Assembly (NCBI RefSeq): GCF_009601685.2
Contig: NZ_CP045701.2
Coordinates: 124,001-188,000 of the forward strand
DNA length: 64,000 nucleotides
Source: Pseudomonas brassicacearum
Lineage (GTDB): Bacteria; Pseudomonadota; Gammaproteobacteria; Pseudomonadales; Pseudomonadaceae
Direction: 5' to 3'
Position numbers and translations under genes: made by a program. Of this stretch, positions 1,571-5,919 are shown one piece after another. Numbering within the stretch: position 1 is the first letter of the stretch; each line of letters starts with the position of its first letter. A model generated the notes under the pieces. It was not told where the DNA came from and searched no databases. It worked only from the letters and a program-made list of their open reading frames with translations.

Positions 1571-1786
1571 GGTGTGATCCTCATAATGGGCCGCACCATC
1601 TCGCTACTAAACGAAAGGGTGGCGGCTGTGCGCAAGTTAGTAGACCGGTGAATCACACCAAAACCGGCGCGCCCGAAGGCGCCATGCGCACAGCCACCAT
1701 CAAGAACAGGCAAGTGCCTGACTGATGAGACTTGTACAACCGAGGTGTGAACCGGGCTACTAAACCCGACCACTGATGGGCAGTGG
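1571..1786 (-). promoter_or_regulatory. Structured 5' leader of the DUF6124 gene (putative cis-regulatory RNA)
   Basis: Read on the minus strand, this gene-free stretch contains several hairpins. There is an 11-bp stem (1624-1634 with 1685-1695). It encloses a GCGCC-UUCG-GGCGC hairpin (1669-1682) and a CCGGU/ACCGG hairpin (1645-1667) whose loop carries GGUGUGAU. That loop is complementary to AUCACACC beside the ribosome binding site (1571-1580). CUACUAA (1637-1643) can pair with UUAGUAG at 1604-1610 or with the copy at 1758-1764. Further upstream are a hairpin presenting UUUAGUAG (1753-1768) and a CCACTG/CAGTGG hairpin (1770-1786). The pattern implies alternative pairings. No named RNA family was recognised with certainty. 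Confidence 0.6.
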
Positions 1787-2137
1787 CAGGAAGACAATAG
1801 AACCCAGGAACAAGGCGCACAAGCGGGCGGATTCTGGCGTAGTTGTAGGCAAAGGCGCAAGGATGCGTAGCTTGATAGAGGGGTGTAGGTGGGAGCTGTA
1901 GGAGGGAGTCTTTTTGGCGCTGCGGGCGGCTTGTTCCGCTCCGGAGCCGGGGCTAGATCGCGATAGCGGTCCAACTCCCAACCGGTCAATCACCGACCCA
2001 CTTCCTGAACGCCTCGACGCCCAACCGGCCCACGAATGCCTGCCTGATGGCGCGAACCAGCTTCTATGCTTGTATACAGCGCCAACCCCCGCTGGGGTTT
2101 TCCCATGTTTCGTTAGCGAGCCTCCAAGCCCTTGTGT
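1787..2137. other. Gene-free stretch upstream of the DUF6124 leader and the DUF2459 gene
   Basis: No coding region is supported here. It must contain the promoter for the minus-strand DUF6124 transcript and that for the plus-strand DUF2459 gene. A short hairpin AACCCC-CGCT-GGGGTT lies at about 2085-2100. Long antisense frames cross it but lack start signals and family similarity. Confidence 0.5.
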
Positions 2138-4387: not shown

Positions 4388-5023
4388 TTATTTACGCTTG
4401 AGCATCTCCGGCAACTGCGCCACCAACTTCTGGTTATTCAGCGGCGCACGAATAAACCCGCGCTGGGTGCCGTCCGGGCCGATGACGGCGAGGTTGCCGC
4501 TGTGATCGACCGTGTAGTTGGGTTTGCTGGTGTCCGCCGGGATGAACGGAATGCTCACCGCATTGGCGAGTGTTTGCAGGTCTTCCACCGAGGCGGCGGT
4601 CAGGCCGATGAACTGCGGGTCGAAGTAGCCCAGGTACTGCTTGAGTTGCTTGGGCGTGTCGCGGTTCGGGTCGACGCTGACCAGTACGATCTGCAACTTA
4701 TCCACAGCCTCGGGCGGCAGTTCGCTCTTGATCTGGCGCAGTTGGGCGAGGGTGGTCGGGCAGATGTCCGGGCAGAAGGTGTAGCCGAAGAACAGCAGGC
4801 TCCATTTGCCTTTCAACTCGTCCATCGCCACGGGCTGGCCGTCCTGGTCGGTCATCTTCACGTCCGGCAGGTTGCGGCTTTGGGGCAGCAGGATGATGCC
4901 GGCATCGATCAGCGCCGTCGGGTCGCCCTGGCCTTTGCCGGACAGCACCTTGTTGATGGTCAGGCCGAGGATCAGCGCGATCACGGCCACGAGGATGAAG
5001 ACGGTTTTCTGGGTTCGAGTCAT
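4388..5023 (-). CDS. SCO1/SenC/PrrC copper chaperone
   Basis: A 211-residue membrane-anchored thioredoxin-fold protein that delivers copper to the CuA site of cytochrome c oxidase. The N-terminal anchor is at residues 8-26. The copper ligands are visible as C84-PDI-C88 within [11 protein letters not shown] and H174 in TVDHSG. The ATG at 5023 overlaps the cyoE stop (ATGA), showing translational coupling; upstream extension of the frame lies inside cyoE. It is the last gene of the minus-strand cox assembly group. Family identity is firm. Confidence 0.93.
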
Positions 5024-5919
5024 AGGCTCAACAGTAAGTAGTGATCTACAAGCAGGGCGATGAACAGCAGGAACAAGTACCAGATAGAGTACTTGAAGGT
5101 GTTGATCGCCGCGTGCGGCCGACTGCCACGGTACAACACCACGGCCCATTGCAGAAACCTGGCGCCCAATACGAGCGCGCAGACAAGATAGAGCATGCCG
5201 CTCATATGGATCACGAACGGCATCAGGCTCACCGCCAGCAGCACCAGGGTGTACAGCAGGATGTGGATCTTGGTGTAGTGCTCGCCGTGGGTCACCGGCA
5301 GCATCGGAATGTCAGCCTTGGCGTATTCCTCCTTGCGGTGAATCGCCAGGGCCCAGAAGTGTGGCGGGGTCCAGGCGAAGATGATCAGCACCAGCAAGAG
5401 CGGTTCGGCGCTGACATGACCGGTGGCCGCGACCCAGCCCAGCAACGGTGGTGCCGCGCCGGCGAGGCCGCCGATGACGATGTTCTGCGGCGTCGCCCGT
5501 TTCAGGAAACCGGTGTAGATCACCGCGTAGCCCAGCAGCGAGGCCAAAGTCAGCCAGGCCGTCAGCGGGTTGGTGAACGCCAGCAGTAACGCTTGGCCGG
5601 CCACCGCCAGCGCGAGGGCGAAGGTCAGGGCGGCGGCGGGTGAGATTCGCCCTTCGGCCAATGGCCGTTTGTGGGTGCGGGCCATCACCGCGTCGATGCG
5701 TCGGTCCACCACATGGTTGACCGCCGCCGCGCCGCCGGCACACAGGGCGATGCCCAGGTTGCCGAACACCAAAACTGTCCACGGCACCCCGGCGCGGGTG
5801 GCGAGGAACATGCCGACCAGCGAGGTGATCAGCATCAGCACCACCACTTTGGGCTTGGTCAGCTCCAGGTAATCGCGCCAGATCGCTTGGCTGTGGCGTT
5901 CACCGGTCAAGGTTGCCAT
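5020..5919 (-). CDS. cyoE: Protoheme IX farnesyltransferase (heme O synthase)
   Basis: A 299-residue polytopic UbiA-superfamily enzyme that converts heme B to heme O, the precursor of heme A. The first aspartate-rich motif is N68-x3-D72-x3-D76, preceded by the conserved TKPKV at 21-25; about nine hydrophobic helices follow. It overlaps ctaA upstream by 13 bp and sco1 downstream by 4 bp, so the three are probably translated from one mRNA. Sitting in an aa3 oxidase locus, it would supply CtaA. Also named ctaB. Confidence 0.95.

Follow-up and report, generated by a model that had tools for sequence, protein, structure and literature searches.

Results

The leader of the DUF6124 gene contains a C4 antisense RNA

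The window analyzed here (the whole stretch of 64,000 nucleotides, positions 124,001 to 188,000 of contig NZ_CP045701.2) belongs to the one-contig, 6.58-Mb genome of Pseudomonas brassicacearum, designated G000. Near one end, its minus strand carries a DUF6124 gene preceded by a leader with the features listed in Table 1; the next long open reading frame on that strand (59-631) reads by eye as a MerR-type regulator. An earlier note, made from the letters alone, had described a central segment of this leader that can pair with its upstream or its downstream flank but not with both, and the complementarity, the two competing pairings and the motifs behind them are all borne out on the minus strand. 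The upstream and downstream copies of TTTAGTAG lie at 1764-1757 and 1611-1604, GGTTCACACC at 1753-1744, the central GGTGTGAT at 1659-1652 and CTACTAA at 1643-1637; ATCACACC (1578-1571) is flanked by GAGGA (1582-1578) and the ATG at 1569.

Table 1. Features of the leader and its gene, in order of transcription (window coordinates)
Feature	Position	Strand	Remarks
25-base element GCCTACAACTRCGCCAGAATCCGCC	1826..1850	-	Common to 18/37 C4 units
Possible promoter, TTGTGC - 17 - TATTGT	1794..1822	-	By eye; similar letters in many other copies
c4-a1b1 (RF03163), hairpin and a1 (1764-1757)	1749..1800	-	cmscan
b1, upstream copy of the b target	1744..1753	-	Paired to b' in the minimum-energy fold
Small hairpin and U-rich tail between b1 and C4	1707..1720	-	Terminator-like, weak (5 pairs)
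C4 antisense RNA (RF01695)	1615..1704	-	cmscan; own model R1
b' address loop TTGGTGTGATTC	1650..1661	-	12-base match to b2, G-U pairs allowed
a' address segment CTACTAA	1637..1643	-	Matches a1 and a2
a2 target TTTAGTAG	1604..1611	-	Match to a'
b2 target GGATCACACCAA	1569..1580	-	Overlaps Shine-Dalgarno GAGGA (1582-1578), extends to the start codon
DUF6124 gene, 120 aa	1207..1569	-	Pfam PF19619, 97 bits, cut-off 27

A search of Rfam 15 with cmscan identified C4 antisense RNA (RF01695; 76.3 bits against a gathering threshold of 45, E = 2.4e-15) and c4-a1b1 (RF03163; 53.0 bits against 46.7, E = 9.6e-13). A match to IsrK (RF01394) spanning the upstream part of the leader fell below its gathering threshold (27.4 against 50 bits), and none of the Rfam riboswitch families matched in the leader. 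These matches assign the central segment to C4, its upstream partner to a1/b1 and its downstream partner to a2/b2. The earlier note had proposed an RNA switch and had been unable to name a matching family. The regulatory RNA that it saw, whose alternative pairings exclude each other and extend to the ribosome-binding site, stands, but it has a family name, C4 antisense RNA with c4-a1b1, and is probably not an unknown riboswitch; similarly, the two very stable hairpins it placed between the pairing segments are present but are parts of C4 itself and not separate elements. As is characteristic of C4, a' and b' can pair with a target further downstream, where b2 lies at the ribosome-binding site. 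Our own model, R1, whose training set includes the window copy, scores the window C4 at 92 bits.

In the minimum-energy fold of 1560-1795, the centre pairs with the upstream copy and the start region is mostly open; when a slightly longer stretch is folded, the centre adopts its own C4 shape instead. Because so small a change in folded length flips the fold, the two states of the leader are near in computed energy. The leader fold has a z-score of -5.0, with 0/200 shuffles equally stable, and this value and the Rfam E-values for C4 and c4-a1b1 indicate that the pairings exceed chance. Compensatory changes among homologous leaders, on which the earlier note had staked its reading, were found across the 37 C4 copies of G000: both partners had changed in 20 of 26 C4 pairs (0/500 shuffles), with 97.4% of cells paired in a structure predicted from the same alignment, and the P1, P2 and P3 stems are all backed by such changes.

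A consensus promoter scan of 1100-2000 found none. Terminator-like sites in the same interval numbered 4 on both strands against 1.3 expected; the scan covered the window copy, and a terminator between a1/b1 and C4 in the other copies was judged by eye only. The GCCTACAACTRCGCCAGAATCCGCC element has 18 matches genome-wide (≤3 mismatches; none for the reversed control), each on the same strand as a C4 and 100-135 bases upstream of it, and is probably a regulator site or the edge of the unit. In another Pseudomonas genome, G009, many of the units L257-L281 have a different upstream element in common; by eye, this element includes TTGTAGGCAA, and the G000 element has the reverse-complementary TTGCCTACAA.

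C4 units are numerous in Pseudomonas

The G000 genome has 37 C4 matches, every one above the cut-off. By position, a DUF6124 gene lies behind 29 of them, with at least three of these genes broken (577748, 3937241 and 6402987), and a DUF3077 gene behind two; of the remaining six, two lie before a 90-residue protein, two before a 94-residue protein or a shortened copy of it, one before a degenerate short frame and one before no small gene. In all, the genome has 34 DUF6124 and 3 DUF3077 matches, one of the latter doubling as a DUF6124 match. The expectation that DUF6124 homologues would have these motifs held at 79 of the 80 named loci (the best 80 of at least 480 confirmed protein relatives) but not at 5 of the 34 DUF6124 genes of G000, which have no C4 within ~2 kb. 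These best 80 of at least 480 relatives are all from Pseudomonas, including P. zanjanensis, P. thivervalensis, P. brassicacearum and P. corrugata; the C4 ends 43-51 bases upstream of the start in 79 of them, and the one named locus without a C4 has only 95 bases upstream before its contig ends.

In a sample of 79 Pseudomonas genomes that includes G000, C4 was detected in 73 at E ≤ 0.001 (72 over the cut-off) and a DUF6124 match in 60. Counts per genome reached at least 47 in the genus search, and a deeper search of G049 gave 55 C4s, three of them below the cut-off; five G049 regions were left out of the analyses. In the sample of the order, C4 was found in 29 of 194 genomes by a search that scored at most 21 matches per genome; outside Pseudomonas there were 1-6 copies per genome, and 14 in one. 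Tandem C4s spaced ~90-110 bases apart, with no intervening gene, occur at L267 (G009 C21:16214-16512) and L278 (G009 C58:321065-321241).

Part of the window's flank is shared by only 3 of the 80 named loci (the best 80 of at least 480). The neighbouring gene was present in only 2 of 24 genomes (G000 itself and one with a 25-base match), and because of this rarity an empty-site comparison at the window locus failed. No plasmid matches were found, and only 1 of 50,697 phage records matched. Among viral-contig loci, C4 precedes DUF6124 in 67 of 78. Twenty-four of the 78 (within L162-L190) have, next to the unit, prtR and holin genes that resemble those of EU982300; by the notes of that record, this cluster is presumably that of a phage-tail-like bacteriocin. 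At L289, the C4-DUF6124 unit is divergent to prtR beside holin genes, as it is in these 24 of 78. In L148, presumably a Mu-like prophage, the unit (5001-5357) has a predicted type IV restriction gene on one side and a head protease gene on the other; a head-protease gene like this one occurs in 2 or 3 of the 78 viral-contig loci.

Proteins encoded behind C4

In G009, one protein matches both DUF6124 and DUF3077 above the cut-off, two more match DUF3077 above it and DUF6124 below it, and ten G009 proteins compared by profile with A3 gave a probability of 94.7%. By these profile matches, DUF6124 and DUF3077 are related families. A P-(N/D)-P-P motif is found near the N-terminus in 29/37 downstream frames of G000, 24/32 of G010 (a third genome) and 24/26 of G009, and is common to otherwise different families of C4-controlled proteins. 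In the AlphaFold2 model of the window DUF6124 protein (mean pLDDT 76), the helix pair (62-86/89-115) is confident and the N-terminal half is weak. A Foldseek search of the PDB with this model gave no match at E ≤ 0.001, and the protein matched no toxin or defence family in Pfam, NCBIfam or PADLOC and nothing in PHROGs. At L021 and L029 (DUF3077 units 411841 and 1567226), a short frame opens at the C4-controlled site and its end, by eye, overlaps a possible DUF3077 start (ATGA), an overlap that suggests translational coupling.

Most C4s are predicted to pair best with the target directly behind them

Specificity was scored by computed pairing of the b' loop with a 31-base start window and of a' with the first 22 bases. 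A first version of the test, which used the P3 letters with the whole leader as target, ranked the own target best for only 5 of 37 C4s and was replaced because GC-rich stems swamped the signal. Before any replicate was run, the test was restricted to the loop and to the window at the ribosome site; in this form it was applied unchanged to G010 and G009. Start codons were set by hand at 7 of the 37 loci in G000 and at 7 loci in G010 and G009. No row was dropped from G000, which includes broken genes and the C4 without a small gene. From 36 matches in G010, one below the cut-off was left out and 3 of the 35 read had no intact downstream reading frame and were dropped, giving 32; from 38 in G009, 12 were dropped (8 with no frame found and 4 with a frame judged unrelated to the unit), giving 26.

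The own target ranked best for 32 of 37 C4s in G000, 31 of 32 in G010 and 26 of 26 in G009 (27 of 30 with the four hand-dropped rows restored). Own-pairing sums exceeded those of every permutation, both in G000 (20,000) and in a three-genome run (10,000 per genome). Four of the five G000 exceptions place their own target second, and the fifth is the C4 without a small gene. When 56 distinct address pairs were compared across species, the own target was best for 36 and among the top five for 55. The distance between the end of the b' match and the start codon is -1 to 10 bases in 36 of the 37 G000 units.

Among the tested rows, no pair of C4s is identical in both a' and b' (0/666 pairs in G000, 0/496 in G010 and 0/325 in G009). 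The one G010 duplicate, 741014 and 741736, involves a dropped row, 741736, without an intact gene, and the 79 named loci (from the best 80 of at least 480) contain one same-genome pair in which both segments are identical. The upstream a1/b1 match is also self-preferring, being best in 25/37 units of G000 and 20/32 of G010; it is weak in G009 (6/26), and therefore that lineage may be able to do without the upstream arm. Folding of the 37 whole leaders gave the C4 form in 21 and the competing form in 15. Orphan C4s were also considered as trans-acting libraries, and this idea was rejected: their best matches fall mostly inside the off-target range of intact C4s.

The b'/b2 address diverges between paralogues with similar coding sequences

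Address divergence was assessed in 24 within-genome pairs with coding sequences at least 85% identical, counting only frames of 60-140 residues. Mean identities were 90% for coding sequence, 86% for C4 stems, 85% for the promoter region and 90% for a', compared with 61% for b' and 64% for the b2 region; the b' background stands at 55% across all pairs in G000 and falls to 50% on shuffling. The reverse case occurs once in the 24 (597272 and 3687819 hold b' at 92% and differ in a').

Orthologues were examined among the 37 G000 units and the 79 named loci (from the best 80 of at least 480), with both flanks required to be syntenic and coding parts to be at least 180 bases; 36 of 41 orthologue pairs fall within the bins shown. 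At coding identities of 75% or more, b' was kept identical in 19/36 syntenic orthologue pairs vs 1/89 paralogue pairs, the pairs not being independent of one another. In the 85-90% coding bin, it was kept in 1/8 orthologue pairs. Syntenic orthologues L129, L130, L134 and L140, compared with L135, have coding sequences 95-98% identical and wholly different b'/b2. Given such swaps at this level of coding identity, the b'/b2 address seems to be replaced as a module.

Discussion

The leader is very likely a self-targeting C4 antisense unit that controls its own DUF6124 gene. By analogy with described systems (PMC5320573, PMC8198154 and PMC4825925, in the passages bearing on these RNAs), its operation can be outlined as follows. 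A single transcript from a promoter near 1800 would carry a1/b1, C4, a2/b2 and the DUF6124 gene. C4 would fold and then be excised by RNase P, with a cut expected before the GG at 1698 from the processing described in the relevant part of PMC5320573. By this precedent, the central RNA would act, once excised, as an antisense RNA and not as a ligand sensor. Released C4 would shut off translation, its b' loop covering the ribosome-binding site within b2 while a' grips a2, and repression would reach the window transcript and sister transcripts in trans. The upstream a1/b1 would compete for the same C4 segments and could therefore hold C4 unfolded, or titrate it, turning the gene on in a manner resembling the action of IsrK in the Salmonella prophage Gifsy-1.

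Because b'/b2 addresses differ across the 37 units, control would be exerted one by one, with little crosstalk. The data suggest that a DUF6124-type family is governed by a large number of RNA controls with separate addresses. Selection may have favored separate addresses, presumably for some benefit of independent control, and module exchange alone could produce the same pattern. More tentatively, the units could be small immunity elements, in which a resident C4 silences an incoming unit with the same address and only units with new addresses establish; this would leave some tens of antisense channels across the genome, with little crosstalk, b'/b2 swapped between units and the gene held constant.

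A type I toxin-antitoxin-like arrangement, with a harmful DUF6124 protein and C4 as its antidote, would suit the large number of small copies that each come with an antisense RNA of their own, and P1 provides a parallel in icd, which lies behind c4 and blocks cell division (PMC8198154, in the passage concerned). We consider it unlikely in view of the lack of any toxin or defence match (Pfam, NCBIfam, PADLOC) or PDB match (Foldseek, E ≤ 0.001) for the window protein, and of the five DUF6124 copies with no C4 nearby. The a' segments provide the best argument for a crosstalking network, in which several C4s act jointly on many targets and not through separate channels: the 37 C4s have 20 distinct a', and a' is shared by 33 pairs. 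The best off-target energy in G009 (24.9 vs a cognate mean of 24.0) and the second rank of the own target in four of the five G000 exceptions point the same way. Such a network is nevertheless improbable given the ranking of own targets in three genomes and the lack of any shared (a',b') pair among tested rows, an objection limited by the duplicate address in G010 (a dropped row) and by the same-genome pair in the 79 named loci (from the best 80 of at least 480). A cis-only attenuator, in which C4 is never released and the leader flips between upstream and downstream pairing, perhaps on a signal, as in the switch of the earlier note, would fit the two leader folds of similar energy, the self-preference of both pairings in G000 and G010 and the weak terminator-like hairpin between b1 and C4, yet is very improbable, since a simple flip needs neither a conserved C4 fold nor terminal G and C columns, both of which are conserved, and processing seems to occur in the C4-like RNAs of Acinetobacter (PMC5320573, in the part describing them).

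The self-targeting C4 unit can be compared with several known systems, and C4 and c4-a1b1 themselves have already been described (PMC2864571, in the section on these RNAs). In the IsrK/orf45-anrP system of Gifsy-1, as in the window, a 5' RNA is complementary to a downstream segment and the transcript has alternative folds; there, a short upstream RNA turns translation on in trans, and STnc1160 is a stable RNA suggested to be processed from the IsrK readthrough transcript (PMC4825925, as far as its account of IsrK goes). The window leader differs in its IsrK score of 27.4 bits (gathering threshold 50), in having only a weak terminator-like hairpin between b1 and C4, and in that no antirepressor gene was found behind its C4. 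The CI RNA of phage P4 (seqA, seqC), as related in part of PMC4825925, is likewise a processed antisense RNA with complementary sites on both sides; it works by transcription termination.

A close relative is the C4 of P1/P7 (immI, RF01695), which is also a three-stem RNA with a'/b' addresses and a target directly downstream at the ribosome-binding site. The P1 operon has the order c4-icd-ant (PMC8198154, in the passage on immI); neither icd nor ant was found behind the window C4, where the P1/P7 immI arrangement is not present. The specificities of P1 and P7 C4 differ by about 4 changed bases (PMC5320573, in its comparison of the two). In contrast to P1/P7, G000 has a chromosomal set of 37 units, most of them before DUF6124/DUF3077-type genes. 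Searches of the open-licence literature found no report of C4 with DUF6124/DUF3077, or with any matched target family, in Pseudomonas, and no description of address divergence or of tens of C4s with matched targets behind them. As an immunity RNA of phages, C4 has been studied in depth; in Pseudomonas, many genomes have it in tens of copies, apparently as a chromosomal control system in which each copy has its own address. Such a natural set of separate antisense regulators should be useful for following the evolution of RNA specificity after duplication, and the units give a handle on the DUF6124/DUF3077 family.

A multi-copy C4 family is already known from Acinetobacter baumannii. What is unusual in G000 is the scale. 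The excerpted text of PMC5320573 lists 21 Group 1 C4-like sRNAs, apparently processed; like those of G000, they are many per bacterial genome and have variable address loops. Their targets were sought among other transcripts and phages, and the same text names no matched gene behind each RNA, unlike G000, where each C4 sits in the leader of its own matched target. The arrangement in G000 suggests that matched targets directly behind the multi-copy C4-like RNAs of Acinetobacter are worth looking for.
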